DNA of 38,176 nt from a virus. The position numbers and the translations under genes are program-made. The notes under the pieces are model-generated. The model saw only the letters and a list, made by a program, of their open reading frames with translations. It searched no databases and had not been told where the DNA came from. This document shows positions 1,126-26,813 of the stretch, one piece after another. Location: IMG/VR virus record IMGVR_UViG_3300008216_004600, positions 1-38,176 of that record; one strand, written 5' to 3'. Each line of letters opens with the position of its first letter. Position 1 is the first letter of the stretch.

Positions 1126-1170
1126 ATGATGCCGCCTTCCATCCCTTCAGTCCTTTGAACGAGGGCAAAA
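1126..1170 (-). promoter_or_regulatory. Late promoter copy 1 (Pmom-like), Mor/C-type box plus -10
   Basis: The leftward element has the dyad TTTTG-CCCTCGTT-CAAAG at 1153-1170 and the hexamer CATCAT at 1126-1131, separated by 21 bases. It is one of four copies in the window. The dyad abuts the TGA stop of the tail fibre assembly gene. The predicted start of transcription is near 1119, which gives a leader of about 188 bases before com. This copy differs from the other three in the last dyad base (CAAAG for CAAAA), which could make it weaker. Confidence 0.75.
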
Positions 1171-1617
1171 TCAATCCCAGGACAAAGCGGCCATATCTTG
1201 CCAGTCGCTGAGCACAGACAGTTGGTATTCCAGAGCCTGACGCCGCCCCAGCACCGCCGCCACCTGAGCCGTATAGGCATCTGCCTTGGCGATGACACGG
1301 TCCCGCAGATCCACAACGGTTATGCCCCGACCCACCGCGATCCCGGACAAGAGAGCCGACTGATAGTTCGGGTCCGCTAGCATCAAGCGCGCCTCTCGCT
1401 CCTGCTTGTCCCAGGACAGAATTTCGGATTCGGGGTACTGCGACCGCAGGATCGCAAGTTCCTGCTCAGCCCGGACATTGAACTGAGAACGCCGGTACGC
1501 CCGATAATCATCGGGGTGGAAACTGAAGCGGGCCACATCGATTTCGGTGACCTCTGCCATCACACTGAGGTCGTCACCGGTACCAAAGTAAATGCCGTCA
1601 AGAAGGATCCGCATCAT
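1171..1617 (-). CDS. Probable tail fibre assembly protein (DUF4376-like)
   Basis: A 148-aa protein. The C-terminal half (about 75-140), with an Ala-rich helical region around ADAYTAQVAAVLGRRQ, resembles the DUF4376/tail-fibre-assembly proteins that follow fibre genes in many tailed phages. It starts with an ATG overlapping the end of the fibre gene by 4 bases, so the two are translationally coupled. It ends directly against late promoter copy 1. Role as a fibre chaperone or minor tip component is inferred from position and weak family resemblance. Confidence 0.55.
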   Translation of the reverse strand: MMRILLDGIYFGTGDDLSVMAEVTEIDVARFSFHPDDYRAYRRSQFNVRAEQELAILRSQYPESEILSWDKQEREARLMLADPNYQSALLSGIAVGRGITVVDLRDRVIAKADAYTAQVAAVLGRRQALEYQLSVLSDWQDMAALSWD

Positions 1618-2759
1618 TCCATGCTCCCCGCTGAAAGTAGAGGCGCCGTGTAGATGCCCGGATCCACCGCGCCACAGAAGAAAGCCGGACAGGCGATCTG
1701 GATTTTGGTGACGTTCCGCTCCCCATAAAATCGAGGGAACGAAGCGTCATAGCCTTGCGGCGCCACGCGCACGTAGCGCATGAAAACCCACCCCTCGGCG
1801 GGCGTCAGGATGTAGTAGTTCGGCGATAGGTGTGGGACACCGTTAATCTCCCGGACATCCCCCTCAGAATGCGGATTGCCAAACAGCGCGGCGTCTCCGT
1901 CAACCGCCCGCACCCACCCAGTGAAGGTGGAAAAGCTGCTCGCCGAGAAGATGAACTTCGAGCCATTCCCCAAAGCCAGATACAGCCCTGTGGAAAGGAG
2001 TTCGTTCGCGGTGCCGCCACCGCATGAGAGCTCGGCAATGTAGAATTCGATGCCGTATCGGGCATACGTACCGGTCCGCCCCATGGCGTTGATCAGATCG
2101 ATAGTGGTTTGGGTCATGCTCCCCAAATTTCCACCAAAGTCATCATTGTTATGGATGAATTTGCCGGCCTCCGAGACCGTAGCACCGTTGTAAAACATCC
2201 AGGACGAAGTGAAGTCGAAAGGTGATGAGCTGACTTGTTGCGTGAACATGCCATAAGTGTTGGCGGACATGTCCGCCTGACGGCCACCATACCCAATCAA
2301 ATTAGTGAACGGGAACGCCGCTTGGTCCGCAGTGGCGCCACTGCCCAATTGCGCCCATGCACCATCTTTCCGAGCATGGATTTCCCCGTCACTCGGGGCG
2401 TCATCCACCACCGCCATGCTCCCCAACTCATCCAGCGTCAATGACGTGTTGATCCAGCGGGCGGCACCGGCGGCTGCCGATGTGCACCGGAAAATCTCGC
2501 CATCGCCACTTTCATTCACCCAGATGGAGCCCGACGACTCCGGCCCAACACCGCTGAACCCCTGTGTTTCATCGTCGTTCACCGTCGGGTCGCGCGTGTC
2601 GACATGGTGCTTGATGCCGTTCGCCTTGAACCACCCCAGCAACACCGACAGCGCCAACTGGCGGCTGCTCAGGCTTCCACCAACGTCCTGCGACACCTCC
2701 ATCAACTCCGTACCTGCCAGAGCCTGGGCAATTGCCAGATCTGAAATGCGGTCAGCCAT
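1614..2759 (-). CDS. Tail fibre / receptor-binding protein
   Basis: A 381-aa protein starting at the ATG that overlaps the stop of the tail tip gene (TAATG). An upstream in-frame ATG at 2840 exists, but it would lie well inside the tip gene. The N-terminal 120 residues contain an ISDLAIAQALAGTELMEVSQ-type segment, seen at the start of phage fibre proteins. The rest is Gly, Ser, Thr and aromatic rich with no catalytic motif. Position after the tip protein and before a fibre assembly protein supports a host-recognition role. Such proteins diverge fast, so the fold cannot be named. Confidence 0.65.
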   Translation of the reverse strand: MADRISDLAIAQALAGTELMEVSQDVGGSLSSRQLALSVLLGWFKANGIKHHVDTRDPTVNDDETQGFSGVGPESSGSIWVNESGDGEIFRCTSAAAGAARWINTSLTLDELGSMAVVDDAPSDGEIHARKDGAWAQLGSGATADQAAFPFTNLIGYGGRQADMSANTYGMFTQQVSSSPFDFTSSWMFYNGATVSEAGKFIHNNDDFGGNLGSMTQTTIDLINAMGRTGTYARYGIEFYIAELSCGGGTANELLSTGLYLALGNGSKFIFSASSFSTFTGWVRAVDGDAALFGNPHSEGDVREINGVPHLSPNYYILTPAEGWVFMRYVRVAPQGYDASFPRFYGERNVTKIQIACPAFFCGAVDPGIYTAPLLSAGSME

Positions 2760-4984
2760 TACTCTATCCTCCGGGTCTGGCCGTCTTCTGTGATACGCAG
2801 CGCCCCGTCTTCGGTGATCCGAGCGGAGGTCTGCAACCATTCAAAGGAGTGTTCGTATGCCTGCCAGCTGGCCAACCCATCCCGCACGGAAACCACCCGG
2901 ACGGTGTACGTGCCGTCCGCCGGCGGAGTGATGGTTTGGCTGGTGGTGGCGGTGGTTTCCTGGGAGACCAGAGAGCCGCCCTGGTACAGAGACACCTGGT
3001 AGGTGGTGCCATCCTCTGGCCCGATATTGCCGTCAGTCCACGGCACCAGGACGTCGGCCTGCAGCAGGCGGTCGCGGTGGGCCCAGGTGACCTGGATCTC
3101 GCCGACCAGGCTCTCTGGCCAGTACTCGCCATTCAGTCGGACCCTGGCCGGCGGATAGGGCCGGTAATGGCGCTGATCGAGCGTGACCACGCCTGTGGGC
3201 GCCTGGGCCAGCTCCAGCAGCCCAGACGACGTGCGCGTGAGCAGTTTGAGATTGACGGTCTCGCCGTCGACGTACTCGCTCTGATCCACCGCCTCGTAGC
3301 CGTCGTAGAACCAGATCCGGGTGCCGGCCAGGTGCAGCACCGGAACCGTGTCTCCACACCCTCGGGCCACCGTGCAGGTCCCAGCGCCGGCATCCAACAC
3401 GTCGACACGCACCATCTCGCTTCCCAGGAGCGCCGCGCCGCCGGTACCCACCTGGTTCAGATCAATGCCGTCTTGCAGGACCAGGTTCCCCTCACCAGGT
3501 TGGAGATCTTGTGCCAGCACCGCCGTCGGGCACCAATCGCCAACGTCGGCCTCCGCGTAGTCGGCGGATCCGGTCCGGGTCATCAGATTGAAGTTCAGCG
3601 CCAGGCCCGACGGCCGCGCGCCAAACGCGCCCACCCAGCCTGACTCCGGCGCCACCGCGCTCAGGTCACCAGGACCCAGCCCGGTCACCATGTCGCGGTA
3701 GGAGAACTCCAGAGCGACCTGGTCGAGCGCCGGCCGCGTTTCCCTATCTGGGGGCGTCCATTCCGTGGGCTGCTCTTCTGTGAGCGCCGTCGCCGGCAGA
3801 CCGAACACGTCCTGCAGGGCGGTAATGATGATCTCGCCGTCCGTGATCGGGCTTTCCTCGATCCTGCCGGCCCGCAGCACCATCTGATCAATACCATGGT
3901 CCGGTGCCGAGATTCGGAAAAGCCCAGCCGGGTGGATATCGTATCCACGCCGGTCAAATCGAAGCCGCAGCCGCCGCAGCCCCTGTTCCTTGGCCGCCAG
4001 ATCCCGCCGGCCCACGCGGCTGGCCAGCCCATAGGTGGGGATGCCTGGATAGTTCACAGTCTCGCTGTGTTTCACCCCGGCGGCCTGGATCGCTCCAAGG
4101 TTATACTCGCGGACGGGCCGATCCTTATTGGTGATCGGGTCGCGGTAAATGACCACCACCTCATTGACGGCGGTATCCGGGGTGGCCAGCCCATCCTCCT
4201 CGATGCTGAGAAGGCCCGAGGAGTAGTCGTAGAGCGGCAGCGCCTCGGGGTCGTAGTCGCCGCGTATCAGGCTCAGAGTCAGCAGCCCGGTTCGGCGGTG
4301 CACGTAGTGACTGGCGCCAATGTGGTCCATCACCGTCTGCATGAACTCGGACAGGCTGCTCTGCCTGGCATAGCGTAGACAGATCCCGAATTCCTCCGCA
4401 TACAGCTTGTCGGCGGCCACCCGGTAGCTCTCAACGTCCAACCGATCGATCGGGAATCCACGCCCCCAGTCCCGATTGGTCAGCCCCTCCACAATAATGT
4501 GGACGCCGTTCATGGCGTGGATCTGTCCGCCCGCCAAGTTGATGGCCACCTTCTCCGGGTACCAGACGCCGTTATCCCAACCGCACATCCGCCGCCGCGT
4601 CCTGAACTTCCACGGTTTCGGGTACGGGTTCATCGCGCTGATCATGCCGCTGAAAAACGCGGTGAGCGTTCCCCTGAATCCGGGAGAGGTACCCCCGAGC
4701 AAGGCCCGCAGTCCCTGCGGTGCCACCTGAGTCGGTTCCCCCATCATGATGTGCAGGGGGCCCTGAACGCCGCCTTCGCCGCTCTCACCACCGAACAGCT
4801 CGGGTTTATCGATCTGTATCGTCGTCGATTCTGTAACGCTGCCGTTCCACGCTGTACGGTCGCCAACCCGGACTTCCACCACCTCATCCACAGCCTGGTC
4901 CGTGCTGGATCCACGCGACAGCCCCATCAGGATGTCGAAGTAGTACCGGTACCCAACCGTCCGGCGTTTACTGCTTCCGCCCAT
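2759..4984 (-). CDS. Tail tip / central hub protein (gpJ-like, Phage-tail_3 type)
   Basis: A 741-aa protein at the end of the tail tip operon, comparable to lambda gpJ and to the tip proteins of siphovirus-type Mu-like phages. The N-terminal 300 residues (SKRRTVGYRYYFDILMGLSRG onward) look like the hub domain. The middle part, around ARQSSLSEFMQTVMDHIGAS, matches the Phage-tail_3 type of region. Residues around 640-720 look like a fibronectin type III domain (TYQVSLYQGG to YTVRVVSVRDGL). The extreme C-terminus has two copies of RITEDG. It overlaps the preceding small gene by 17 bases. A role in host contact and DNA ejection is inferred. Confidence 0.8.
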   Translation of the reverse strand: MGGSSKRRTVGYRYYFDILMGLSRGSSTDQAVDEVVEVRVGDRTAWNGSVTESTTIQIDKPELFGGESGEGGVQGPLHIMMGEPTQVAPQGLRALLGGTSPGFRGTLTAFFSGMISAMNPYPKPWKFRTRRRMCGWDNGVWYPEKVAINLAGGQIHAMNGVHIIVEGLTNRDWGRGFPIDRLDVESYRVAADKLYAEEFGICLRYARQSSLSEFMQTVMDHIGASHYVHRRTGLLTLSLIRGDYDPEALPLYDYSSGLLSIEEDGLATPDTAVNEVVVIYRDPITNKDRPVREYNLGAIQAAGVKHSETVNYPGIPTYGLASRVGRRDLAAKEQGLRRLRLRFDRRGYDIHPAGLFRISAPDHGIDQMVLRAGRIEESPITDGEIIITALQDVFGLPATALTEEQPTEWTPPDRETRPALDQVALEFSYRDMVTGLGPGDLSAVAPESGWVGAFGARPSGLALNFNLMTRTGSADYAEADVGDWCPTAVLAQDLQPGEGNLVLQDGIDLNQVGTGGAALLGSEMVRVDVLDAGAGTCTVARGCGDTVPVLHLAGTRIWFYDGYEAVDQSEYVDGETVNLKLLTRTSSGLLELAQAPTGVVTLDQRHYRPYPPARVRLNGEYWPESLVGEIQVTWAHRDRLLQADVLVPWTDGNIGPEDGTTYQVSLYQGGSLVSQETTATTSQTITPPADGTYTVRVVSVRDGLASWQAYEHSFEWLQTSARITEDGALRITEDGQTRRIE

Positions 4985-5189
4985 TGGCGACCTCCTGGCG
5001 GGCGGTGTCGGCGACCCGCTGACCCAATGCGTCCCCGGTGGCTTCCAGCATCTCGGCGGTGACTTGCCCGCGCCGGCATGCCTCGAACGTCATGCCGTAT
5101 TTAATGAACCACTGACGCGCGCCGGACATGCACAACCCAGCGGCGCGGATATGGCGGGGATAGATCACCACCAGCGCCGTCATTGTCAT
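4968..5189 (-). CDS. Small tail assembly protein
   Basis: A 73-aa protein starting MTMTALVVIYPRHIRAAG. It belongs to a small family that sits between the BR0599 protein and the hub protein in siphovirus-type transposable phages; the LEATGDALGQRV segment near the C-terminus is the recognisable part. The ATG overlaps the TGA of the preceding gene (ATGA), so translation is coupled. The long ORF read-through above it (to 5537) runs antiparallel to coding sequence in another frame and is not real. The biochemical role is unknown. Confidence 0.7.
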   Translation of the reverse strand: MTMTALVVIYPRHIRAAGLCMSGARQWFIKYGMTFEACRRGQVTAEMLEATGDALGQRVADTARQEVANGRKQ

Positions 5190-5416
5190 TTCTTGCCGCC
5201 TTTCTTCCGGATTGCGCTGGTGCGGTAGTTTCCAACCGCGAGCACGACCCAGTCTTGTGTCCAGCAGTCGCCAAAGATGACGTACTGTTCCGTGCCTTCT
5301 TCCGCCAGCGGAAAGTCCACGTCCTCGAAGGCGGCCGGCTTCGGCGCCTTTGGTGTCGGGGCCAGAAAATAGCTGACCGCATAGCTGACAACCGCAATGG
5401 CAAGCTGTACCCACAT
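5186..5416 (-). CDS. Small membrane-anchored tail assembly protein
   Basis: A 76-aa protein with one N-terminal hydrophobic segment (about 3-19), then a Pro/Lys-rich linker (PTPKAPKP) and a short domain containing EEGTEQYVIFGDCW. This resembles the N-terminal part of phage tail tip proteins that read PxxAEEGTxxxxxFG. It lies 12 bases after the BR0599 gene and overlaps the next gene, inside the tail tip operon. It may help assemble the tip complex; this is inferred from context. Confidence 0.65.
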   Translation of the reverse strand: MWVQLAIAVVSYAVSYFLAPTPKAPKPAAFEDVDFPLAEEGTEQYVIFGDCWTQDWVVLAVGNYRTSAIRKKGGKK

Positions 5417-5428
5417 CGCGTTTCTCCC

Positions 5429-6238
5429 TCAGAACACCGGATTGCCGTCGAATGGCGATGTGTCGGGCATGCCCGGCGCACCGCCGTAGTTGTCGTAATT
5501 GCCTTTCTCGATGCACGCCGCTTTGGTGAGTAGGCACCCGGCATGCGCCTGAACCACCTGTCCCACGGCGAGGCGTTCGGTACCGCCACGCAGGATGACG
5601 GTGTCACCCTGGTGGATATCGATCCCGCGTTGTTCCTGCAGACCGTCACTCGCCGTCCAGCTGATGAACCCACCGGAAAACCAGCCATCGGGCTTCGTTG
5701 CCAGCTCCAGGGCCGCGATGGCGACGCGATCCAGAGCGCCGATCGTGGCCGTTACACGGAAGTCCGCGGGCCTCAGCTTGCAGTTGTGGTCGTAGATGCT
5801 GTAGACGCAATTGGGGCTCCACGTCAGACGCAGGCCGGTGGTATCCAGGTCCTGAGCAATAGAGCGGCAGGTGATCTGGGCATCCAGCCGCCGACGGTTG
5901 ACGTTGACGATGGACCCCGTCCAGACAGCGACCATCTGGGTATCGCCGTAATGCATGTCGTAGACAGTCAGCCAGATACGCTGCGACGGTGGGTAAAGGC
6001 GGTATTGCAGAAGCACTTCCAGATCTGGCGGTACGGTGATCTTGGCGTCGTCGGCGCTGGTCTCACCGGTCTGACGGAAACCGTCATCGCTGATCTGGAT
6101 ATTGGTCCAGTGGGTCAACTCGTGATCGATATCCCGGTTGGCGCTTGTGTATCGCCAGACCCGCCCCGCCTGGGAAAACTCGTAGAATCGAACGGGCCGA
6201 CCGTCGGCCAGGCTTTGCTCCAGGGCGTCATAGCTCAT
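5429..6238 (-). CDS. Phage BR0599 family tail tip protein (gpL-like)
   Basis: A 269-aa protein of the DUF2163/BR0599 type, the counterpart of lambda gpL. The N-terminal domain (1-130) is beta-rich. The C-terminal part holds four conserved cysteines, C144, C153, C235 and C242, followed by the typical GNYDNYGGAPG segment. In lambda gpL a cysteine cluster binds an iron-sulfur centre, and the same spacing here suggests a metal-bound fold. It overlaps the upstream tail gene by 11 bases. The assignment is good; the metal is inferred. Confidence 0.82.
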   Translation of the reverse strand: MSYDALEQSLADGRPVRFYEFSQAGRVWRYTSANRDIDHELTHWTNIQISDDGFRQTGETSADDAKITVPPDLEVLLQYRLYPPSQRIWLTVYDMHYGDTQMVAVWTGSIVNVNRRRLDAQITCRSIAQDLDTTGLRLTWSPNCVYSIYDHNCKLRPADFRVTATIGALDRVAIAALELATKPDGWFSGGFISWTASDGLQEQRGIDIHQGDTVILRGGTERLAVGQVVQAHAGCLLTKAACIEKGNYDNYGGAPGMPDTSPFDGNPVF

Positions 6239-7934: not shown

Positions 7935-7937
7935 CCG

Positions 7938-8900: not shown

Positions 8901-8906
8901 GGTGCA

Positions 8907-9947
8907 TCACTCCAACTTCAGGGCGATAAAGTTCTGATTCGCGGTGCGATATACGTTTGGAAGGATGAGATAGGTGTCACCACCGATGGTTACCGTGTCC
9001 TCAGCCGAAACCCCCACTCCGGGGATAAAGAAAATGCCATCCAAGATGCCGTATACCCCTGGTGCATTTGAGGCCATAGAGTTGAGCGTGATCGGAGTTA
9101 GAAGATAGCTCCCCCCCAAAAGAGGGACTTGAGCCCGTACAAACACCTCCGTGAGCATTCCCCAACTACGCGAGCCCAATCCACCGCCCCAGCCGGGCGG
9201 GGTGGCCAGCCCCCCCCCTGAAGTGATATGGCGAGGCTGGGCACTAATGTTATAGGGGAAGGTTCGCGCTCCTCCCGTCCCGGTCTCGTAATCGTCGTCG
9301 GCGTTACCATTATCGAAATTGAGCCAAGTTCCGGTCGGTCCCTGAGCTGCCAGTTGACCCGCTGCCGGATCCGTGAAGAACGCGTGGTTGGTCCCCGTGG
9401 TTTCGAGACCGACAGAACTGATCCCTGCTGTTGTTGTTCCACCCACAAAGGCGGGATAAGGGTGCCCGGCAGGGGAAGCATAGGGTATGTACAGGCCCCC
9501 TCCACCCAGCCCGTAGGTCATTCCAGTCTTCAGCCCGATGTAGAACCGACGTCCGCTAGCAACAAACCAGTAGCCAACGGTGCTCAAGCCGAGAGGGAGT
9601 TGCTTAACACCAGAGCTGTTGATGTGCCCCTCATACGTGACATTGTCGGGCAGAACCCCGTTATGCCCTTGAATGTGGAGCATTGCTCTCAGAAGCGTTT
9701 GGCTCTCTTGGAGCCATAACGAAACGTAGATCTCATCCTGCGCAGCCAACCCTGGCCCTTTAAGCATGACGGCTCCAGTGATCCCGCTCCCTGCCGTATC
9801 CGCAACAAAGGGGGGAGGCGCTCCCACTTCCGGAACCCGCTCCCAATTCTGACCCGCCGCTACCAGGTCAGGATTTGAAGTCAGGAAGCTGTATAGCTTG
9901 TTAAACAGATCAACATGATCGGTCGCGGTACCAATTTCCACTGCCAT
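8907..9947 (-). CDS. Virion structural protein, tail region (paralogue B)
   Basis: A 346-aa protein whose start overlaps the stop of the tape measure gene (TAATG). The N-terminus contains HVDLFNKLYSFLTSNPDLVAAG, a segment I associate with phage particle proteins that follow the tape measure. The centre is Gly/Tyr rich, and the end reads TVTIGGDTYLILPNVYRT. The following gene has the same general plan. No enzyme motif is visible. It is probably a tail surface or tip-proximal protein. Confidence 0.6.
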   Translation of the reverse strand: MAVEIGTATDHVDLFNKLYSFLTSNPDLVAAGQNWERVPEVGAPPPFVADTAGSGITGAVMLKGPGLAAQDEIYVSLWLQESQTLLRAMLHIQGHNGVLPDNVTYEGHINSSGVKQLPLGLSTVGYWFVASGRRFYIGLKTGMTYGLGGGGLYIPYASPAGHPYPAFVGGTTTAGISSVGLETTGTNHAFFTDPAAGQLAAQGPTGTWLNFDNGNADDDYETGTGGARTFPYNISAQPRHITSGGGLATPPGWGGGLGSRSWGMLTEVFVRAQVPLLGGSYLLTPITLNSMASNAPGVYGILDGIFFIPGVGVSAEDTVTIGGDTYLILPNVYRTANQNFIALKLE

Positions 9948-12900
9948 TATTTAACCCCCATAACGCTGCGGAATTTCCCAGGATTGCGACTGATGTGCAG
10001 GACCATGGCTTCTTCGCCAGCCGGCCCGCGCAGCGCCTCCGGAATCAAATCCTGGTCCAAAATCGGCAATAGCCGTTGCTTCATCACCGGTGCCGGAATC
10101 GCCCCGGCCATCAGCACCGCCGGGCTGTCGGAAATGGGGGCCACCGGGGTGACAGGCCCGCCCTCGGCGTAGCCTCGGAATCGAGCCAGCGCCGCCATTC
10201 CTTCGGCACGAAACGCTTCCATGAACGCCATCGCTCCCGGCTGACGCATGATGTGCGCCGGCTGGACATACTCACCAGCGTGCACCACACCCGCGACCTG
10301 GTACTTGCCGCCCGGGCCTGTCCAGCCACCGATAGCGAAGCCCCCCAATCCGCCCGCCGCATTTGCCGCCGTGATCTGGGCAGCACCAGTGGTGAACGTG
10401 GTAGCGAGGGCAGTAGTCAGGAGCGTAGTCCCTGACGTCATAGAGGTGGCGATCGCCGTGCCCAGTGTGGTTGCGCCAGCAGCTGTACTGGCAGTGATCG
10501 TGCCGCCTATAGTCGTTGCCCCGGCCGTACTAGCGGTCGTAATCGCTGCCGACATGGTCGCGGCTCCAGCAGCGGTGGACGCGGTGTCCGCAGCTGCATC
10601 TGCCCCACGATTGAACCAACCTGATATCTGGTCCGTGGCCATCTGAGCCAGATTCTGCGCCGCGAGATCCAGCATGGCGTCGGCGATGGACTGAGCCACG
10701 CCTTGTACGACGTCGCGCAGGTCTTCGGCACCCTTTGCCAGCTGAACCAGGCCATCCGCCAGACCGCTTTCAAACGAGTCACGAAGCGTGGTGGTGAACT
10801 GGTTGGCGGTGGCTTGCAGCTGCTCCATCTCGGCCTTGAGATCTCGCACACGTTCCAGAGCCGCTGGATCGCCTGTCGCGGCGGCCAACTCTTCCATGCG
10901 GGGGATCAGCTGCTCGATCTGCTGTGCGGTCTCACGGTGCAGGTCGAGCACTTGGCGCCGCGCGCTCAACTCGCTGATCAGTCCAGTCTGTTGCTGGGAT
11001 TGGATGGATTGTTCTCGGCGATCCTGCTCGCTGTAGATGCGGTCGATCTGCGCTTGCAGCTGCTCCATTTCGGCCCGAGCCGTCTCTACGTTGATCAGAG
11101 AGCGGACCATTTCCGCCCCGGCTACGTCGCTGGCGGCTTCCAGGCGGGCGAGTAGCTGCTTATAGGTCTGTTCCAGCTCGTTGGCACGGGCTTGCGCGAC
11201 GTTGCCCTGGGCGCGCTGCAGGTCGTTCTCTACGCCCTGCAGAGCCTCCAGGTTCTCCTGAGCCGTGAGGGCTGCGTTCGCTGCCCGGGCACGTTCCAGC
11301 AGCGTACCGGTCAGGCCCTTCTGCTCAATGTCATAGGCCCGCGTCGCGGTCGCACCGCCGTCCAGTACTGCCGCCTCGCGCTCCAACTGCTTGACGAACC
11401 GTTCCATCTCCTTGCGCTGGCGTTTCAACTCACGTTCCGCTTTTGCGGACGCGGAGCTGCGGTCGGTGTACCGGGCATTGATATTGGCGATGTTGCGGTC
11501 GACGGTTGCCTGGTCGAGGCGTGCGTCGTCGGGATTAACCTTGCGGATAGCCTCCAGGTTCTCCCTGTACTCCTTGATCGCCGCGAGGCGCTTTTCTTCC
11601 TTGGTCTGTGCCGACTTCGTTTGTTTGTCGATCTCGGCCATGGCCTTGATGGCCGCATCCTGAGCCTGGCGCTCCTGAGCCTCTCTTTCGGCGGCGGCAT
11701 CACGCCGCTGCCCCTCCAGCACCAGCGCTTCGCGTTGCGTTCTCAGGTTTGCCAGGATGCGGCCAGGCACCGACGGACCATCAACGCGATCCGCGCCGGC
11801 GTTCTCCAGTTTCGCGATCTGTCGATCCAGTTCCTCGATCTGCTCGTTGACCGTTTGCTCCCGGCCAATATTCAGCAGTCCGTCCCACGCCTCAGCGGCA
11901 ACGCTCTTGAGCCCGTCCCAAGCTCGTTCGAGCAAGCCGATATCATCACTGATCTCGCCGGACCGCTTCCGCACCGTATCCGCGTAGGCGTTCATCGCGG
12001 CTTCGACCGCTTCGGCTGACCGGCCCTGTTCCTGCAGAGACGCGATTGCGGAATAGGCCGACGCATCCAAGAAGTGATACTGGGCGTTCAGCTCCTGGAT
12101 CGCTTTGACTGGGTCTTCCGCGATCTTGACGAACTCCGCCACGGTGGCCTCGACTGCCTTGCCGGTGGCGCTTTCCATCAGGATTGCGGCCGTGGCAACG
12201 GATTCGATCTGTTCCGCCGTGAACTTGCCCGTTTCCGCCACGTCGGCGAGCACGGCCGCCGCGTTCCGGCGAGTGCCCTCAATGTCGTCCAGCCGCCGCG
12301 CCATGTCACCGAGCTGGTCCGCCGTGGTGCCAGCGGCGTTGCCGGTGAGGGTCAGCGCTTCCTCATAACGCCGGGACTCGCCGGCACCTTGCTCATACGC
12401 TGCAATGGTGGCGATCAGGGCTGCCCCTACAGAGCCAATCAGCAACGGTACCGGGCGGATGGACGACACCAGCGCACGCGCCGCTGGGCGGATACCGCCG
12501 AAGCTATCCTTGAGCTGGCCACCTTGCTGGATCGCCACCATCCAGATCGGCATGCCAGAGGCAATCGAGGTGGTGACGTCGGTGATCTGCGCAGGGAGTT
12601 GACGCATGGCCTGGCGGTATTCACCGGCGGACAAGGTGCCATAACGCATGGCCTCGGCGGCCTCTCTGGACGCGCTGGCCTGCTGGCGCATTCTCCGGGG
12701 GACCGGTGTCGCCCCCACAGCGCTTATGCTGTTGCGGGCGGCGTCGGCTGCCTGGTCGATCTCACGGAGTTCCTTCTCCACGACCTCCAGCGACTTTTTC
12801 GCGGGCGCGGTGTTCGTCGTACCGACAGCGTCCATACTGGTGGCGGCGCCTTTGGCGGCTGCATCGACTTCATGCAGCTCCTTCTCCACCGTTTCCAGTG

Positions 12901-13072
12901 ATTGCTTCGCCGGTGCCACGTTGGTGGTGCCAACGCCGTCCAGGCTGGCCTCGGCGCCTTTGGCGGCAGCATCAACCTCATGCAGTTCTTTCTCGAACAG
13001 ATCGAGCTGCTGTTTGGCGGTGTCCAGGTCTGCCTGGATGCGCAGGGCGAGGTCGAGATTTGATTGGGCCAT
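9947..13072 (-). CDS. Tail tape measure protein (TMP_2 type)
   Basis: At 1041 aa this is the longest gene and has the tape measure pattern of lambda-type tails: a helical N-terminus, a domain around residues 150-235 with RQLPAQITDVTTSIASGMPI and then a hydrophobic stretch, long charged coiled coils (about 390-770), and a Thr/Ala-rich C-terminal region ending in GYAEGG. It sets tail length and is ejected with the DNA. Residues 19-120 hold three tandem 36-residue repeats (LEVVEKELREID type). The ATG has no Shine-Dalgarno sequence and coincides with the predicted start of transcription from late promoter copy 2, so the message may be leaderless. Confidence 0.9.
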   Translation of the reverse strand: MAQSNLDLALRIQADLDTAKQQLDLFEKELHEVDAAAKGAEASLDGVGTTNVAPAKQSLETVEKELHEVDAAAKGAATSMDAVGTTNTAPAKKSLEVVEKELREIDQAADAARNSISAVGATPVPRRMRQQASASREAAEAMRYGTLSAGEYRQAMRQLPAQITDVTTSIASGMPIWMVAIQQGGQLKDSFGGIRPAARALVSSIRPVPLLIGSVGAALIATIAAYEQGAGESRRYEEALTLTGNAAGTTADQLGDMARRLDDIEGTRRNAAAVLADVAETGKFTAEQIESVATAAILMESATGKAVEATVAEFVKIAEDPVKAIQELNAQYHFLDASAYSAIASLQEQGRSAEAVEAAMNAYADTVRKRSGEISDDIGLLERAWDGLKSVAAEAWDGLLNIGREQTVNEQIEELDRQIAKLENAGADRVDGPSVPGRILANLRTQREALVLEGQRRDAAAEREAQERQAQDAAIKAMAEIDKQTKSAQTKEEKRLAAIKEYRENLEAIRKVNPDDARLDQATVDRNIANINARYTDRSSASAKAERELKRQRKEMERFVKQLEREAAVLDGGATATRAYDIEQKGLTGTLLERARAANAALTAQENLEALQGVENDLQRAQGNVAQARANELEQTYKQLLARLEAASDVAGAEMVRSLINVETARAEMEQLQAQIDRIYSEQDRREQSIQSQQQTGLISELSARRQVLDLHRETAQQIEQLIPRMEELAAATGDPAALERVRDLKAEMEQLQATANQFTTTLRDSFESGLADGLVQLAKGAEDLRDVVQGVAQSIADAMLDLAAQNLAQMATDQISGWFNRGADAAADTASTAAGAATMSAAITTASTAGATTIGGTITASTAAGATTLGTAIATSMTSGTTLLTTALATTFTTGAAQITAANAAGGLGGFAIGGWTGPGGKYQVAGVVHAGEYVQPAHIMRQPGAMAFMEAFRAEGMAALARFRGYAEGGPVTPVAPISDSPAVLMAGAIPAPVMKQRLLPILDQDLIPEALRGPAGEEAMVLHISRNPGKFRSVMGVK

Positions 13073-13078: not shown

Positions 13079-13123
13079 ATTCTGTCGTGCCGGTGCCAGG
13101 GAGTCTTTTGAACGAGGGCAAAA
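13079..13123 (-). promoter_or_regulatory. Late promoter copy 2 (PP-like), before the tape measure gene
   Basis: The dyad TTTTGCCCTCGTTCAAAA is at 13106-13123 and the hexamer CAGAAT at 13079-13084, with 21 bases between. The predicted +1 is base 13072, the A of the tape measure ATG. The upstream edge of the dyad forms part of the T-tract of the terminator that ends the previous operon. Confidence 0.8.
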
Positions 13124-16256: not shown

Positions 16257-16259
16257 CAT

Positions 16260-17255: not shown

Positions 17256-17266
17256 TGCAGGGCTCC

Positions 17267-17668: not shown

Positions 17669-17680
17669 GATGTACTCCCG

Positions 17681-18292
17681 TTACTTATCGGAGGTGCTGC
17701 CGGCAGCCGGCTTATAGCCGGGCTTGCTCTTGGCGTACTCTTCCGGATCAATGCCCATGGAACGGCACACGGCCAGTTCCTCCGCATCCAGGCCGTTGTC
17801 ATCGACCTGGGTCGTCACACCATTGGTTTGAGTGCTACGCAGTGCCGCAATGGGTTGAGCGGTCTCCAGGTAAGCCTTCAACGCCTGGATGTCCTTCTTG
17901 CCAAGGTCACGGGCCCACTGTTCCTGCGCCTTCAAAAGTCGACCGTCTTCCAACCCCTCGCTCACGAGTTCGTCAAGCTGGTTGGAGTTGAACTGCCCGG
18001 ACAGCGCCGCCAGTTCGGCACGGAGGTCTTCAACCACCTTCACCGATACGTATTTGGCCGGATCCGGGGTCTCTCCTCCCTGGGTGCCGCCGGATTTGAG
18101 GGTGGCCACGCGTGCTTTCAGCGCGTCCAGACCAGCGCCTTCTTCCGCACCCAATTCCTGGCGCAGTGCCGTCAACATGGCCACGAAACCCGTGTTGTCG
18201 GCCGTGACCTTTTTCAAAGCCGCAATGGCGTCGTCTTCGGTGGTGTTCGGTTCCAGGCCCAGGGCCTCGATCAGCATCTTCAGCAAATCCAC
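17681..18292 (-). CDS. Nested scaffold protein from an internal start in gene I
   Basis: An in-frame GTG at 18290-18292 is preceded by a perfect GGAGG eight bases upstream (18301-18305). The product would be 203 aa and begin MDLLKMLIEALGLEP, which is a typical start of scaffold domains. Mu makes its scaffold Z in the same nested way from gene I (established). I infer the same here; the strong internal ribosome-binding site, against the lack of one at the main start, would favour scaffold over protease. Confidence 0.6.
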   Translation of the reverse strand: MDLLKMLIEALGLEPNTTEDDAIAALKKVTADNTGFVAMLTALRQELGAEEGAGLDALKARVATLKSGGTQGGETPDPAKYVSVKVVEDLRAELAALSGQFNSNQLDELVSEGLEDGRLLKAQEQWARDLGKKDIQALKAYLETAQPIAALRSTQTNGVTTQVDDNGLDAEELAVCRSMGIDPEEYAKSKPGYKPAAGSTSDK

Positions 18293-18862
18293 GGGGTGTT
18301 CCTCCGTTGGGTGATGGATTGACCGCATGGCAGCCAGCGCCTGCATCCCGTCCAGGCCGGGATAGTTGGTGACGGCAGCCATTTCTAAGGTCAGAACGTC
18401 CCCCGTGCCGGGGGCATACTGGAAAACCGGGGATAGGTAGCGGTACTCGCCGGCCTGGATCATCTCCCGAGCCTTGGCGGTCCACTCAATCTTCGCGAAC
18501 AACCCTTGGCCTTCACGCCACTGCAGCTCATTGATCCAGCCGGCGGCCGGCGCGGGCACGCCGTTCACCTCGGCGTGCAGCGTCTGGTGCTCGTAGTCCA
18601 CCACGGCGGCGTTCACCCGCCGACTGAACTGAGCAATCAGAGTGGCGGCGAGAGTCGCATCCAGGCGCCACGCCGGCGCATCGACCGGACGGCCATCTCG
18701 TGCCGAGAACGTGCCCGCTGGCAGGATCTGCTGCCATTCCCCCGTGGAGCTCTGCAGATCGAACACGCAGGCCGCCACCACCGGGCAGCCCGTTTGGGCG
18801 GTCGGCTGAGCGCTACAGACAGCGAGGCGCGAGGGTTGAGTTGTCCGAGATATCGTTTCCAT
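17681..18862 (-). CDS. I: Head maturation protease with C-terminal scaffold (Mu gpI-like)
   Basis: A 393-aa protein of the Mu gpI family. The protease part covers about 20-185, with LPAGTFSARDGRP, VVDYEHQTLHAEVNGVPAPAAGWI and YRYLSPVFQYAPGTG. The C-terminal part is a helical, charged scaffold. Upstream in-frame starts at 18886 (GTG) and 18871 (ATG) lie at or upstream of the predicted -10 and would not be transcribed from late promoter copy 3. The ATG at 18862, one base after the predicted +1, is therefore preferred, although no Shine-Dalgarno is present. The protease is expected to cut scaffold and portal-associated proteins during capsid maturation. Confidence 0.82.
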   Translation of the reverse strand: METISRTTQPSRLAVCSAQPTAQTGCPVVAACVFDLQSSTGEWQQILPAGTFSARDGRPVDAPAWRLDATLAATLIAQFSRRVNAAVVDYEHQTLHAEVNGVPAPAAGWINELQWREGQGLFAKIEWTAKAREMIQAGEYRYLSPVFQYAPGTGDVLTLEMAAVTNYPGLDGMQALAAMRSIHHPTEEHPVDLLKMLIEALGLEPNTTEDDAIAALKKVTADNTGFVAMLTALRQELGAEEGAGLDALKARVATLKSGGTQGGETPDPAKYVSVKVVEDLRAELAALSGQFNSNQLDELVSEGLEDGRLLKAQEQWARDLGKKDIQALKAYLETAQPIAALRSTQTNGVTTQVDDNGLDAEELAVCRSMGIDPEEYAKSKPGYKPAAGSTSDK

Positions 18863-18869
18863 GGTGGCC

Positions 18870-18914
18870 ATAATGGGACCGGCCACCGACGGCGTCTTTT
18901 GAACGAGGGCAAAA
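18870..18914 (-). promoter_or_regulatory. Late promoter copy 3 (PI-like), before the protease gene
   Basis: Dyad TTTTGCCCTCGTTCAAAA at 18897-18914, hexamer CATTAT at 18870-18875, 21 bases between. The predicted +1 is 18863, one base before the METIS start codon of gene I. This is the best match to a sigma-70 -10 among the four copies. Confidence 0.8.
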
Positions 18915-19056: not shown

Positions 19057-19076
19057 AGAGGCCTTACAGGGCCTCT
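19057..19076 (-). terminator. Hairpin after gene G, possible terminator
   Basis: AGAGGCC-ttacag-GGCCTCT forms a 7-bp stem that touches the gene G stop codon. No U-run follows in the leftward RNA, so termination would have to be weak or Rho-assisted. The rest of the interval down to late promoter copy 3 (18915-19056) has no gene I can support; it contains an AT-rich stretch at 18990-19008 in otherwise GC-rich DNA. Confidence 0.4.
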
Positions 19077-19639: not shown

Positions 19640-19737
19640 GGAAACCTCCTAAACTGGTCCTACGGTTGTTGCATGTGCTGCCCCCGGCGGCTGGGCCACC
19701 AGGTGCACCAACTGCCCACGTGAGCCGGCGCGTGGGA

Positions 19738-22540: not shown

Positions 22541-24168
22541 GCTGAGTGCTCCTCCATTGGCAAATCGCTGTCGTCGTCCAGCACGTTGTCATACCCTCGG
22601 CTGGAGCGAGGCACCTCGGTAAATTCCATCGGGGATACGTTCATATGCGCGGCTCGCGCCGCCATCACCAGCGCCACCGCGAAGTCGCCATGACGCTTCG
22701 CTTTACCGGACTGGGATTCCAGGTCTTTCTGTCGGCCTTTATCGATGCTGGGGATCCCGTTGACGACCTTGATACTCAGCAGGTCATCCAGAATGGACTG
22801 ATGCCGTGGCACCTCCATGTTGAAGGCCTCAAACTCGCCCTTCAGTTTGGGCATCCATTCGTGATACCAGGACTGGCTGATGTCCACCTGGTCCACCATG
22901 TTGCTGCCGAATTCCAGCGCTGCCTGTTCCGCCAAATACCCGCCGTTGCCGGTGGCATCAAACGCCGAGCCGCAGAAGTTGGGAAGGCGTTTCATGATGT
23001 AGAACAGCACCTGACGTTGCTGCTCGTAGGTCAGATTGCGCAGCTCCACCACGAAGGGAGCCCGCTTGCGCAGATTCGCACTGATCGCGAGTGGGACAAA
23101 GACGGTCAGGTCGCCTTTGCGGGCGAAGTCTTCCCCAAATACATGGCGGTGGCTCTTGTTGAGCCGTGCCAATACCGGTGCCAGGTACTCCTCACACCAG
23201 CTGTCGATCTCAGCCTCACGTTGGGCCTGTGGCCATCCCTCGAAGCCGCTAGGCGCTTCATATCGGAAGATGGGGATGGACCGATCCGCGACCATCGCCG
23301 CCTCGATCAGGATCCGACTCAGATAATTGCCGCCGGATCGCTTCGGCACGCAGCCGTATTCCTCATCCGCGCTTTCCGGGTTCGGGGCGTTCTTGTACAG
23401 GTCATCCCGCCATTTCTTCTCGGCCTCTGGTGACCACGGTTGGCCGGTGACGTAACAGATCCGGCGATACAAGCCTTCAGCAATGGCTTCGTCCAAGGTG
23501 ATGCGGTGAACACTGTAGTCCTTGCGGCCTTCTCGGGCGTCCTGGATGTACTGATTGAAGGCGTTATCCACGCCGTTATGGGTGCTGATCAGGCGTACCT
23601 TGTTTCCCCACATGGTGAGCGCCAGCGCGGCCTTGAGCAGCTCCTCCAGGGATTCGTGAAAGGCGGCTTCATCAATGACCACATCGCCCTGCAGGCCCCG
23701 CAAGTTGCTGGGGCGCGATGACAGCGCCTGAATCTTCCGGCCAGTTTTGGGAAACCGGATCATGTAGGTCAGGATTTCTTCCTTCTTGCCGTCATCCCAG
23801 AACGTTTGCTCATAGACATCGGCCTCGGCCAGCTCATTGAACGCCCGGGCGAACAACGCACAGGCGGCAATGTACTCCAGCGCCATCTCCTGTTTACTGC
23901 CCACGTAGAAGGTGTTGCAGCCACCACGTCGCCGGGGCTTCGCGGCGTTCATGACATTGCGGCCTGCCTCCGCCCAGGTCAGACCGGTCCGACGAGACTT
24001 CTCGGCGATCATGATCTGGCTCAGGTCCTCGAACCAGCGCTGTTGGTACGGCAGAAACACCGGCTCGTTGTCCGGCTGAGCGTCGACCATCTCCTGCGGC
24101 ACGTCCACCCCGTACAGCGCCATTTCTTCCGCCAAGTCGATCTTGCGGGGCGTTCCGGTGGGCTCCAT
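22534..24168 (-). CDS. Terminase large subunit (Mu gp28-like)
   Basis: A 544-aa packaging motor. The ATPase part has a deviant Walker A (KSRRTGLTW, about 57-65) and Walker B VVIDEA (about 163-168). The nuclease part shows FGEDFARKGDLTVF (about 344-357), FDATGNGG (about 403-410) and HGDFAVAL near 500, the acidic positions of the RNase H fold. I use the ATG at 24168, overlapping the gp27 stop as TGATG, over the GTG one codon before. In Mu-like phages it cuts inserted genomes by headful starting in host DNA next to the left end. Confidence 0.93.
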   Translation of the reverse strand: MEPTGTPRKIDLAEEMALYGVDVPQEMVDAQPDNEPVFLPYQQRWFEDLSQIMIAEKSRRTGLTWAEAGRNVMNAAKPRRRGGCNTFYVGSKQEMALEYIAACALFARAFNELAEADVYEQTFWDDGKKEEILTYMIRFPKTGRKIQALSSRPSNLRGLQGDVVIDEAAFHESLEELLKAALALTMWGNKVRLISTHNGVDNAFNQYIQDAREGRKDYSVHRITLDEAIAEGLYRRICYVTGQPWSPEAEKKWRDDLYKNAPNPESADEEYGCVPKRSGGNYLSRILIEAAMVADRSIPIFRYEAPSGFEGWPQAQREAEIDSWCEEYLAPVLARLNKSHRHVFGEDFARKGDLTVFVPLAISANLRKRAPFVVELRNLTYEQQRQVLFYIMKRLPNFCGSAFDATGNGGYLAEQAALEFGSNMVDQVDISQSWYHEWMPKLKGEFEAFNMEVPRHQSILDDLLSIKVVNGIPSIDKGRQKDLESQSGKAKRHGDFAVALVMAARAAHMNVSPMEFTEVPRSSRGYDNVLDDDSDLPMEEHSAW

Positions 24169-24716
24169 CACTCTCTCCCCAGCAGGATCCCTTTGATCCG
24201 GCTTTCCAACTGCTCGCTCATACCATCGCTGCCACGCATCTCCTCCAGCCGCTCCTGCTGTTCCTGAAGCAACTTGTCGCGGGCTTCCTTGGCGATCTGC
24301 CGGCGCTCTTCCATGCTCGCCTTACGGGCATGCAGCACGTCCTTGGCGGCGCGGGCCAGCTTTCGGACCGCATCAATGTCGACCTCTTCCTCGGACTGTG
24401 CGGAGAGCGCCGCATGGGTGGTCAGGGTAGTGATGGACTGCACCATGAGGGCACCGGCGCGCTCGTCAGGATTCTCGCCCAGTTCCGATACCAACATGGC
24501 GGCCAGATCCTGCTGCTCCTTCGCCCGGCGTGTCAGTTCATCGAACTGCTTGCTATATCGACCAACCGAAGACCGGCTGGGATGGTCGACGCTGGGGAAC
24601 CGTTCTTTCAGGTCCGCAATCAATTCATCCAACGTCATGCGGCCTTCGCGCAGACGTTTCTCGATGTGTGACCGAACCTCGGCCGGCATTTGCTCGATAC
24701 TGGACTTACGGCCCAT
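24168..24716 (-). CDS. Mu gp27-like protein (DUF3486), probable small terminase
   Basis: A 182-aa protein of the DUF3486 family. The N-terminus MGRKSSIEQMPAEVRSHIEK and LDELIADLKERFP with VSRSSVGRY-type helix (about 44-60) form a putative HTH, followed by a long charged helical region. I start it at 24716, beside the stop of the gp26-like gene; the upstream extension to 24779 is out-of-family sequence within that gene. It probably recognises DNA for packaging and partners TerL. Confidence 0.85.
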   Translation of the reverse strand: MGRKSSIEQMPAEVRSHIEKRLREGRMTLDELIADLKERFPSVDHPSRSSVGRYSKQFDELTRRAKEQQDLAAMLVSELGENPDERAGALMVQSITTLTTHAALSAQSEEEVDIDAVRKLARAAKDVLHARKASMEERRQIAKEARDKLLQEQQERLEEMRGSDGMSEQLESRIKGILLGRE

Positions 24717-24717
24717 G

Positions 24718-25014
24718 TCAGGCTCCTGGTCTGCGCACGCCCGGTACGGAGGCACGTCCAGCGGCGATATCCGCGCCACGTTCGGTCAGCTTAACCAGCA
24801 TCACGGCATCCATGTCTTCCACCTCGGCGAGACCTTGCTCATCGAGCCAGTGCAGTTCTGTCTTCACCTGGTCTCGGGAGGCGTTATGGCCGTACTGGCG
24901 AAGAAGACCGGCCAGCACCGAACTGTTGGCACTGTACGCCGGCATTTCACACAGAATGCGCAAGATCACCAGGCGCTGGTCCTCGCGCAGGAAATTCGCG
25001 TACTTGCTGCTCAT
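24718..25014 (-). CDS. Mu gp26-like protein, winged-helix type
   Basis: A 98-aa protein similar to Mu gp26 and the VpaChn25_0724-type phage proteins. It has a small winged-helix-like region: REDQRLVILRILCEMPAYSANSSVL and then LHWLDEQGLAEVEDMDAVMLVKLTERG. Located just before the small terminase gene, as in Mu. It is often annotated as an ArsR-like regulator, but whether it binds DNA or joins the packaging complex is not known. Confidence 0.75.
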   Translation of the reverse strand: MSSKYANFLREDQRLVILRILCEMPAYSANSSVLAGLLRQYGHNASRDQVKTELHWLDEQGLAEVEDMDAVMLVKLTERGADIAAGRASVPGVRRPGA

Positions 25015-25020
25015 TGGCGG

Positions 25021-25323
25021 TCACCTGTGCTTCAGAAGGTAGTCGTTAACACGATCCAGATTCTTGGCGACGGGAATCATGCTTTCCGCTATGCCGCCTA
25101 ACCGGGCCTCCAAGCCCGCCAATCGCTCCACCAAATTGGAGAGCTGATCGGTGGTGGGGACAGATTTCATCGCCGTCTCCAGAGCGATCAACCGGGAGCG
25201 CATTTCCAGCACTTCCGTGGCCCGGGCGGATTGGCGCCCGATCAACCAGGCGTAGATCCCCACCAACACGGTCAAAATCCATTGCATGTTCGAGAACGAG
25301 AACGTCAGCTCCCCGAGTTCCAT
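25021..25323 (-). CDS. DUF2730-type protein, one transmembrane segment and coiled coil
   Basis: A 100-aa protein with one transmembrane helix (about 13-29) and a long C-terminal coiled coil (about 35-95). The pattern fits DUF2730, found between lysis and packaging genes in Mu-like phages. ATG 25323 directly precedes the Rz1 stop. Its function is not known; a role in lysis or virion assembly at the membrane is possible. Confidence 0.7.
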   Translation of the reverse strand: MELGELTFSFSNMQWILTVLVGIYAWLIGRQSARATEVLEMRSRLIALETAMKSVPTTDQLSNLVERLAGLEARLGGIAESMIPVAKNLDRVNDYLLKHR

Positions 25324-25584
25324 CTACTTTTCCCCCTGCATCTGATATTCGTACTGCTCGTACTTCAGCCCCGCGCACTCGCCGTAAAGGTCATACATCT
25401 GTTTCAGCACGACCGGGCACTGATTTGGATCATTCGTCGGATACGGGATCCGAGCGCTGCAGGGCACCGTCGAGACCGCCGGTTGCGGCGTCGACAGCCC
25501 GCTGTCGGGCGGCGGTGAGGATGTGCACGACACGGTCGCTATAGCGCACAGCAGCACGCAGCTCGGCGTTTTCAGCGAGTGCAT
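25324..25584 (-). CDS. Rz1: Outer-membrane spanin lipoprotein (Rz1-like)
   Basis: An 86-aa lipoprotein whose signal ends in a lipobox-like ATVSC with Cys20, followed by a Pro/Ser-rich region as in Rz1. It starts inside the Rz gene in another frame (overlap 25430-25584) and extends beyond it. This overlapping arrangement is characteristic of spanin pairs. Together with Rz it fuses inner and outer membranes in the last step of lysis. Longer than lambda Rz1 (60 aa); residue T at -3 is not the commonest lipobox residue. Confidence 0.75.
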   Translation of the reverse strand: MHSLKTPSCVLLCAIATVSCTSSPPPDSGLSTPQPAVSTVPCSARIPYPTNDPNQCPVVLKQMYDLYGECAGLKYEQYEYQMQGEK

Positions 25585-25837
25585 CTTTCAGCTCCTGAGT
25601 GGTGGTCTGGTCCTGCCGGTATCGCTCCGCCAGGAGTTTGGACAGCCGCACGCTGGCCGCTTTCGAATCGACCAGTAGCGTCTTGTGAGTGGCTAGCGCC
25701 TCGGTTAATGCGGCCAGAGTGGCCTGGTTGGCTTGCGCTTCGGCTCGGCCTTTTCCTTGCTTGTAGCCGATGCCGTATCCCCCACCTGCGGACAGAATGG
25801 CGGCCACCAGGATGGCGATGATCCAGCGCGCGATCAT
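25430..25837 (-). CDS. Rz: Inner-membrane spanin (Rz-like)
   Basis: A 135-aa protein with an N-terminal transmembrane anchor (about 5-25), followed by a basic YKQGKGRAEAQ boundary and a long periplasmic helical region (about 30-120). This is the architecture of i-spanins. It overlaps the endolysin stop (ATGA) upstream and contains the start of Rz1 in a different frame. Topology and neighbours make the call firm even without close sequence similarity. Confidence 0.82.
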   Translation of the reverse strand: MIARWIIAILVAAILSAGGGYGIGYKQGKGRAEAQANQATLAALTEALATHKTLLVDSKAASVRLSKLLAERYRQDQTTTQELKDALAENAELRAAVRYSDRVVHILTAARQRAVDAATGGLDGALQRSDPVSDE

Positions 25838-26448
25838 GGGCAGACTCCCGTGCCCCAGCCGGCCCGTTCATACAGCGGGGACCAGCGGAGCAAGATCCGC
25901 CGGGGGTAGTCTCGGTTTTCCCGGAACGCAGCGGCGGAACGGCCCGCGTTGAACCGCTCCACCGAATCAAACCACGCCAGCGGATCGGCCCCCTTAGCCG
26001 ATGCCAGCCGTTTGTCGCGGAGGATCCAACCGAGACCGCCGTTGTAGCTCGCAAGCGTCATGGCCCAGCGGTCGCAGACGTGGGTGGCGTGGATCCGGTC
26101 ATAGAGCCAGCGGTCATACAACACCAGCGCTTGTAGCGCCCAACTCGGGTTATAGGGCTGACGGTCTCCCAGGTACGCCGGATACAACTCCGCGAACCAA
26201 TCCGACGTGTCCGGCATGAACTGCGCGAGCCCCTCAGCGCCGGCCCATGACCGAGCGTCAGAACGCCAGGCGCTTTCTTGGTGAACCTGAGCCGCCAGCG
26301 TAGCGATGGGAGCATCCAGGCCCCAGTGGGCATGGGCGGCGCGGGTCAGCAGGCGCTGGTATTGCAGCGCCTCCCGAGGGACGACATCGGCGTAAGCCGG
26401 CTGGCAGGCACTGACCAGCAGCACCATGGCGACGATCAGCCCGCGCAT
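25834..26448 (-). CDS. Lytic transglycosylase endolysin (SLT domain)
   Basis: A 204-aa secreted lytic transglycosylase. Residues 1-20 are a Sec signal (possible cut after AYA). The SLT fold shows the catalytic glutamate in QVHQESAWR (E58), GAEGLAQFMP (about 70-79) and the ASYNGG motif (about 133-138). It cleaves the glycan strand of peptidoglycan with formation of an anhydro-sugar. The signal also contains VSAC, a possible lipobox with Cys15, so an anchored lipoprotein form is possible. It follows the holin by one base and is coupled to Rz. Confidence 0.85.
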   Translation of the reverse strand: MRGLIVAMVLLVSACQPAYADVVPREALQYQRLLTRAAHAHWGLDAPIATLAAQVHQESAWRSDARSWAGAEGLAQFMPDTSDWFAELYPAYLGDRQPYNPSWALQALVLYDRWLYDRIHATHVCDRWAMTLASYNGGLGWILRDKRLASAKGADPLAWFDSVERFNAGRSAAAFRENRDYPRRILLRWSPLYERAGWGTGVCP

Positions 26449-26449
26449 G

Positions 26450-26728
26450 TTAGAGCCCCAGCGTCAGACCGAGGATGCAGGCCAGCACGACCAGGGCACG
26501 CCGCACCATTGCCGCAGCACAAGGCACGGCCTGGGTGCCTCGGGCAAACGTATGCGGTCGCGCATAGGGGAACAGGGTCCGGTCAATCCAGTAGCCGAGC
26601 ACCGCACCCATCGTGACCAGCGACGCTTTATACAGGACAACAGGCAACTGCTGCGGTTGGATCAGAGCGATAACAACCAGCAGCCCTATAGTGATGACCA
26701 GCCATTCTGTGAGGCGGGGGAATCGCAT
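26450..26728 (-). CDS. Putative holin (HP1-type)
   Basis: A 92-aa protein with three hydrophobic segments (about 8-24, 28-48, 70-92). The central LYKASLVTMGAVLGYWIDR-LFPYARP stretch is typical of the holins of Mu-like and HP1-like phages. It is the first gene after late promoter copy 4. The ATG has GGAG about 8 bases upstream. As a holin it would depolarise or permeabilise the inner membrane and time lysis. Confidence 0.75.
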   Translation of the reverse strand: MRFPRLTEWLVITIGLLVVIALIQPQQLPVVLYKASLVTMGAVLGYWIDRTLFPYARPHTFARGTQAVPCAAAMVRRALVVLACILGLTLGL

Positions 26729-26761
26729 GACGCTCTCCGTTCGGTGGGTCCGAAATAACTA

Positions 26762-26780
26762 CGCCCCCATGATGGGGGCG
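26762..26780. repeat. Hairpin overlapping the -10 of late promoter copy 4
   Basis: CGCCCCCAT and ATGGGGGCG form a 9-bp perfect arm pair around one base (26762-26780). The -10 hexamer CATCAT lies inside it. In the leftward direction the run after the stem is TAGTTATTTC, so it could also act as a weak terminator for the cargo genes upstream. It may alter melting of this promoter. Confidence 0.5.
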
Positions 26781-26813
26781 CAGCCCGTGAGCGTCTTTTG
26801 AACGAGGGCAAAA
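26769..26813 (-). promoter_or_regulatory. Late promoter copy 4 (Plys-like), before the lysis genes
   Basis: Dyad TTTTGCCCTCGTTCAAAA at 26796-26813, hexamer CATCAT at 26769-26774, 21 bases between. The dyad abuts the TGA stop of the small lipoprotein gene. The predicted start near 26762 leaves a 34-base leader with a Shine-Dalgarno before the holin. Confidence 0.8.

Follow-up and report, generated by a model that had tools for sequence, protein, structure and literature searches.

Four near-identical 18-bp boxes, all facing leftward in a transposable phage, raise the question of whether they are the promoters of its late operons and, if so, which protein reads them. The window, that is, the whole 38,176-nucleotide stretch of the IMG/VR record IMGVR_UViG_3300008216_004600, is the 38-kb record of a transposable siphophage of the B3 type. 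Its rightward strand encodes MuA-like and MuB-like proteins, GemA, and Mor, and its leftward strand the repressor, lysis genes, a Mu-like terminase, portal, protease, capsid, and long-tail genes. The Mor-family gene (37826-38176, +; PF08765, E = 3.2e-33) is the last of the early operon and the sole one of its family in the record. Considered as a whole, the boxes are very probably best explained as Mor-driven late promoters of a B3-type transposable phage.

Direct reading bore out the layout of the original prediction, namely four leftward boxes of which the first differs by one base. The 18-mers at 13106-13123, 18897-18914, and 26796-26813 showed no difference among the three, and that at 1153-1170 had a single mismatch to them, G replacing A at base 18 when read in promoter orientation; all four were on the minus strand. 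Read on that strand, the 22-nt stretch ATTTTGCCCTCGTTCAAARGAC was common to all four copies, such that the N8 core of the 18-mer is not free. The −10-like hexamers were located exactly 21 nt past each 18-mer, as had been claimed, and the same predicted +1 positions were obtained again.

The genes that follow were also those originally named. At the lysis promoter, the box at 26796-26813 (TTTTGCCCTCGTTCAAAA) and CATCAT at 26774-26769 give a predicted +1 at 26762, ahead of the holin ATG at 26728; the holin gene (26450-26728, −; phrog_1528 holin, E = 3.6e-34) is the first of the lysis/packaging operon. The protease promoter comprises the box at 18897-18914 and CATTAT at 18875-18870, with a predicted +1 at 18863, one base before ATG 18862 of a Mu-I-like head protease (17681-18862, −; PF10123, E = 4.9e-109). 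Based on the promoter position and on relatives, the start of this gene was reassigned from GTG 18886, which gives the longest open reading frame, to ATG 18862. The box at 13106-13123 and CAGAAT at 13084-13079 precede the tape measure gene (9947-13072, −; PF06791, E = 2.8e-72), the first of the tail operon, and here the predicted +1, 13072, is the A of the ATG. Lastly, the box at 1153-1170 (TTTTGCCCTCGTTCAAAG) and CATCAT at 1131-1126, with a predicted +1 at 1119, stand before a small four-cysteine Com-like ORF of 42 aa (803-931, −), recognized by sequence reading and by its position, which is like that of B3 Com, immediately upstream of a D12-class adenine methyltransferase, Dam (1-792, −; PF02086, E = 1.4e-25). 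Between this start site and the Com-like ORF lies a repeat-rich, untranslated leader of about 190 nt (932-1118), which is partly conserved in the virus records G008 and G009 and is possibly a Com-type translational control region.

Chance repeats were excluded as an account of the four boxes by expectation, shuffle counts, and matrix scores alike. With up to one mismatch, TTTTG-N8-CAAAA was found four times in the window against an expected 0.40, and four copies were reached in none of 100 shuffles. A position matrix trained only on the promoters of other phages scored the lysis site at 47.5 bits, the protease site at 47.1, the tape measure site at 43.4, and the com/Dam site, the lowest, at about 40.6-40.9; the next best score anywhere in the window was −4.4, and the best among 12 dinucleotide shuffles was 2.0. 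The record therefore contains exactly four such sites. A scan of the window for consensus sigma-70 promoters and terminators returned nothing beyond shuffles, which is expected for activator-dependent promoters.

The window Mor alone gave few relatives when used as a probe, and the box itself was therefore used. An exact scan of IMG/VR for its 17-mer recovered 22 stretches, and the refined pattern TTTTGCCCNNGTTCAAAWKAC recovered 76; removal of duplicates and addition of prophage sites from the Microbulbifer okhotskensis genome (six sites with the pattern, none with a reversed control) resulted in 66 distinct promoters. The dyad of the original prediction, TTTTG-N8-CAAAA followed by GAC, was present but proved underspecified: across the 66 promoters the true element is TTTTGCCC-NN-GTTCAAA-WKAC, in which only the two central bases vary freely. 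The box-plus-hexamer search of related genomes that had been proposed as a check bore out the spacing in all 66 promoters, with A(−11) and T(−7), positions 2 and 6 of the −10, at an offset of 21 nt in 61 of the 66 promoters and 22 nt in the other five, while the same signature occurred 0-7 times at each of the remaining tested offsets. By similarity, the first downstream gene was a holin (27), protease I (19), or tape measure protein (20), and nothing else. By any comparative standard, these 66 sites are late promoters.

Several records carried the 17-mer in another setting. In G003, G004, G006, and G007 it was judged not to be a promoter, being on the strand opposite to the late genes and beyond a tail gene; the Mor helix in these four is ITERGLRKLI, and their lysis boxes resemble TCTGCCCNNGGGCAAAYTAC and are followed at 21-22 nt by a −10-like hexamer. 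The M. okhotskensis OS29 sequences (L028, L029, and L157-L162) are prophage pieces with the same box as the window and a Mor 59-61% identical to its own, a hint that the host of the window phage is a related bacterium.

As expected of a B3-type late regulon, a common box stood at holin, protease, and tape measure genes with 21-22 nt to the −10, and, in a comparison of 30 genomes or records, sites recurred at these three orthologous places. Just three of them, the window, G008, and G009, had a further, separate window-type box at com/Dam, which scored lower than any other site of the same record (40.9, 26.6, and 29.0, respectively, versus 33.9-46.8 for the other sites). Where Dam is located elsewhere (G005, G011, B3, and phiSHP3), no box was found upstream of it. 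Comparison across these genomes thus gives the regulon a core of three promoters, with an optional and probably weaker fourth at com/Dam. The claim of a complete late regulon stands insofar as the record holds exactly four sites, but not as to its core, which is three. Moreover, the record seems trimmed at gene ends, with the Dam stop codon at base 1 and the Mor stop codon at 38176, and about 120 bp would be expected past mor by comparison with JBD25; completeness is therefore valid for this record only. The initial finding is right and general once restated as a three-plus-one regulon with an 18-bp box that is free at two bases.

The late-promoter reading received further support from transcription in the Pseudomonas phage Fc02, for which passages of a strand-specific RNA-seq study describe an early strand, ending in mor, that is transcribed first, followed by three clusters on the opposite strand (PMC9936078). 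The first of these begins with holin-endolysin and packaging genes, and the second contains mainly virion structural genes (PMC9936078). We located boxes in Fc02 before the holin (11702), protease (20100), and tape measure (25607) genes, and the three late clusters, as reported in those passages, fit these three boxes. The corresponding predicted +1 positions in Fc02 are 11753 for lysis, 20152 for the protease, which coincides with its annotated ATG, and 25658 for the tape measure. The boxes themselves are not described in the passages concerned (PMC9936078), and among the open papers searched, of which the Fc02 RNA-seq study was the only relevant one, we found no description of B3-type late promoter sites.

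The candidate activator is encoded once. The window and 28 other virus records with a Mor-family gene each had a single such gene, and no second, C-like protein was detected in them; Mu, in comparison, has two Mor-family proteins, Mor and C. Among the first 15 virus records, 13 had exactly one Mor-family gene, and the two others were fragments of 11 and 16 kb. Seven further records with the 17-mer had no Mor-family gene over the cutoff. Box-bearing records that lack Mor and have a transposase stop within a few kb of the transposase, and so look truncated before mor. Searches of the PDB with the window Mor retrieved Mu Mor (1rr7, E = 2.5e-10) and the C structures 9l0x (E = 5.1e-8) and 9vw8. A single-sequence structural model of moderate confidence (pLDDT 69.5), which served only for helix placement, puts a putative C-terminal helix-turn-helix at residues 83-90 and 94-108, with R95, K99, and R103 in the second helix.

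Across related phages, the class of box changed with this recognition helix, as the original link to Mor would have it. In 23 carriers of the window-type box, with Mor identities down to 37%, R95 was retained in 22 and K99 and R103 in all 23, and the second-helix motif was VRGIYK or a close variant. Fc02, JBD25, and D14K have the Mor helix LTPSSIYKLL and the box TTTTCGCCCCTTCCAAAAGAC, B3 has VTEDWIYSVV and TTTTCG-N6-CGAAAA, and JBD67, PM105, JD18, and D14F have ISEGLIYEIV or VSEGLIYEIV and a fourth box class. In all three of these groups the boxes have diverged, while their places and spacing are unchanged. The B3 and JBD67 types are the most informative pair: their Mors are close, and the sequence flanking the box and −10 is almost the same in both at lysis and protease, but the helices differ, as do the boxes at all three operons. 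If Mor reads these operators, three unlinked sites are expected to change in concert with the recognition helix, as they do here. This covariation, which is partly phylogenetic, supports Mor as the reader of the box, short of proof of binding. A single box for all Mor phages was rejected, since Mu, D3112, B3, and JBD67 are without the window-type box, B3 and JBD67 having boxes of their own. De novo searching of three upstream regions in D3112 and the Leptolyngbya phage JY19 gave nothing above the level of shuffles, and D3112, JY19, and Komp yielded no box with the same methods. In phiSHP3, the lysis and protease regions share GAACNCGTGCAAATGACCTG, which was weakly picked by the matrix, and no third copy was found.

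These results bear on two other accounts of the boxes. They could be real late promoters that are bound by another phage regulator, for example the IclR-like helix-turn-helix protein encoded at 29924-30223; the window does encode other helix-turn-helix proteins, and it was for Mor that box covariation was examined. Nevertheless, box class tracks the Mor recognition helix, with its three basic residues kept among carriers at low overall identity, mor is the last gene in the early operon, and the Mor and C proteins of Mu activate such promoters from the same position, so that we consider a different regulator improbable. Alternatively, the boxes might serve some other process, such as transposase or enhancer binding, packaging, or replication. 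Repeated transposase sites do occur in transposable phages, and the box alone contains nothing that marks a promoter. Against this, all 66 copies face the start of a late operon with A(−11)/T(−7) at 21-22 nt, no box occurs in the early region of the window, and the late clusters of Fc02, as far as the passages cited above describe them, fit the sites; a non-promoter role is hardly credible. Mor-driven late promoters thus remain the preferred reading.

The nearest characterized counterparts are in Mu. At its middle promoter Pm, the −35 is replaced by a 16-bp element, centered at −43.5, whose two 5-bp inverted repeats are bound by a dimer of Mor (PMC4390567). With +1 set 7 nt past the hexamer, the window dyad is centered at about −42.5, which agrees with the predicted center near −42 and is within 1 bp of Pm. 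The window resembles a Mor/C-activated promoter system in encoding a PF08765-family activator and in having a dyad in place of the −35, a fixed −10 spacing, and a predicted start. As at Pm, the activator is of the Mor family, and 5-bp inverted repeats with a G/C-rich spacer replace the −35 (PMC4390567). Unlike Pm, the element is 18 bp with 8 bp between the 5-bp arms, rather than 16 bp with 6, and Mu Mor serves a single promoter to make C, whereas three or four late operons are the predicted targets here.

The Mu late promoters Plys, PI, PP, and Pmom are activated by C (PMC4461284). They have in common with the window sites that several late operons are served by one Mor/C-family protein near −35/−45, that the −10 is non-consensus and there is no good −35, and that separate promoters serve the lysis genes, protease I, and the com/mom-type modification genes. 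They differ in that the activator here is the mor homolog ending the early operon, with a single Mor-family gene in place of the three-tier Mu cascade (Mor, Pm, C, and late). The layout also departs from lys, I, P, and mom, the third promoter being at the tape measure gene rather than before P. The box sequence, for which the matrix reached at most 8.3 in Mu, is unrelated as well, and the Mu I gene has its annotated start at 18056.

Further parallels were seen with the Pseudomonas B3-like siphophages B3, JBD25, Fc02, JBD67, and PM105, which share divergent early and late arms, a mor that ends the early operon, and three late promoters with equal box-to-(−10) spacing. Their boxes are unlike that of the window (TTTTCGCCCCTTCCAAAA in Fc02 and about TTTTCGGTTGCCACAAA in JBD67, with the B3 version given above), and their com/Dam genes have no separate box. 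Phages of this group have alternating CG tracts (CGCGCGCGCG) as the spacer from box to −10, namely at B3 11566 and 26818, at the lysis and tape measure promoters of JBD67, PM105, JD18, and D14F, and at the Fc02 tape measure promoter.

We propose that the rightward early operon ends by making Mor, the sole protein of its family, and that a Mor dimer, by analogy with Mu, would bind the 18-bp imperfect dyad (half-site TTTTGNNC) centered at about −42.5. The box would stand in for the −35, with Mor recruiting sigma-70 RNA polymerase through contacts again modeled on Mu, at −10s that are weak and defined mainly by two bases (NANNNT, usually with C first). Mor would thereby fire the lysis/packaging, head, and tail operons directly, and in some lineages com/Dam, giving two tiers (early and late) instead of the three of Mu, with neither a middle promoter nor a C protein. 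For the protease and tape measure operons, transcripts would start with the A of the ATG or one base ahead of it, which predicts leaderless mRNAs, and the holin would have a leader of about 34 nt.

The short −10-to-ATG distance behind the leaderless prediction, which the original prediction did not point out, was seen widely, though not universally. At 21 of the 39 protease and tape measure promoters, an ATG occurred 6 nt (18) or 7 nt (3) past the hexamer, and among all 66 promoters none had its first ATG at 8-16 nt, while none of 27 holin genes started closer than 24 nt to the hexamer. The protease ATG of Fc02/JBD25, B3, and JBD67 is likewise right past the −10 despite different boxes, and a leaderless protease mRNA is predicted for B3, Fc02, and JBD67 as well. 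Annotated or longest-frame protease starts lie upstream of the predicted +1 not only in the window but also in B3 (B3ORF36, 19857) and JBD67 (20124); the true start in all three is probably the ATG just past the −10. In other lineages, a leader is predicted at the protease and tape measure genes.

It is also conceivable that the promoters are right and the protease and tape measure mRNAs nonetheless have leaders, either because they start farther upstream or through read-through from the preceding operon. The 7-nt distance from −10 to +1 follows a rule of thumb, read-through is possible between late operons arranged head to tail, and several relatives have the longer leaders just noted. The exact position of the ATG, its recurrence in the proteases of B3, Fc02, and JBD67, and the fact that a start 2-3 nt earlier would still be too close for a Shine-Dalgarno sequence argue otherwise; leadered transcripts nevertheless retain a substantial chance, if somewhat short of even. 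We likewise give a chance somewhat short of even to the full combination in which, in this large phage group, Mor alone replaces the Mor-C cascade, head and tail mRNAs are leaderless while lysis keeps its leader, and Mor specificity has switched repeatedly with all operators in concert.

Relative to Mu, three things would be new: direct control by Mor, Mor-operator pairs that have diversified, and head and tail mRNAs predicted to be leaderless. The sites define the late regulon at sequence level, with start sites predicted to the base, in a group of transposable phages that is widespread and whose late promoters we did not find mapped in the open literature. The paired specificities, of at least four classes, are material for learning how Mor-family activators read DNA, and the promoter signature corrects protease start codons in several phage annotations. 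The textbook leaderless case is lambda cI from PRM. Should the leaderless starts be confirmed, translation of major structural operons in proteobacterial phages would do without a Shine-Dalgarno leader. This would be unusual, and leaderless head and tail versus leadered lysis mRNAs could tie structural and lysis proteins to different ribosome states.

Two further observations concern the region around the lysis promoter. The motif NRVAGRDY is common to the C-terminus of a repressor-like protein (28102-28530) and the N-terminus of the adjacent membrane protein (27390-27953). The lysis −10 hexamer itself is in the loop, or close to the loop, of a strong G+C hairpin (26735-26800, −; CGCCCCC-ATCAT-GGGGGCG, then TAGTTATTT), which was also found at the lysis promoters of G002, G008, G009, G012, L091, L095, L111, L127, L156, and L159. 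As read-through RNA, this hairpin folds much more favorably than shuffled sequence (z = −4.4 for the window and −5.3 for G008), and it may end a leftward immunity transcript inside the lysis promoter.
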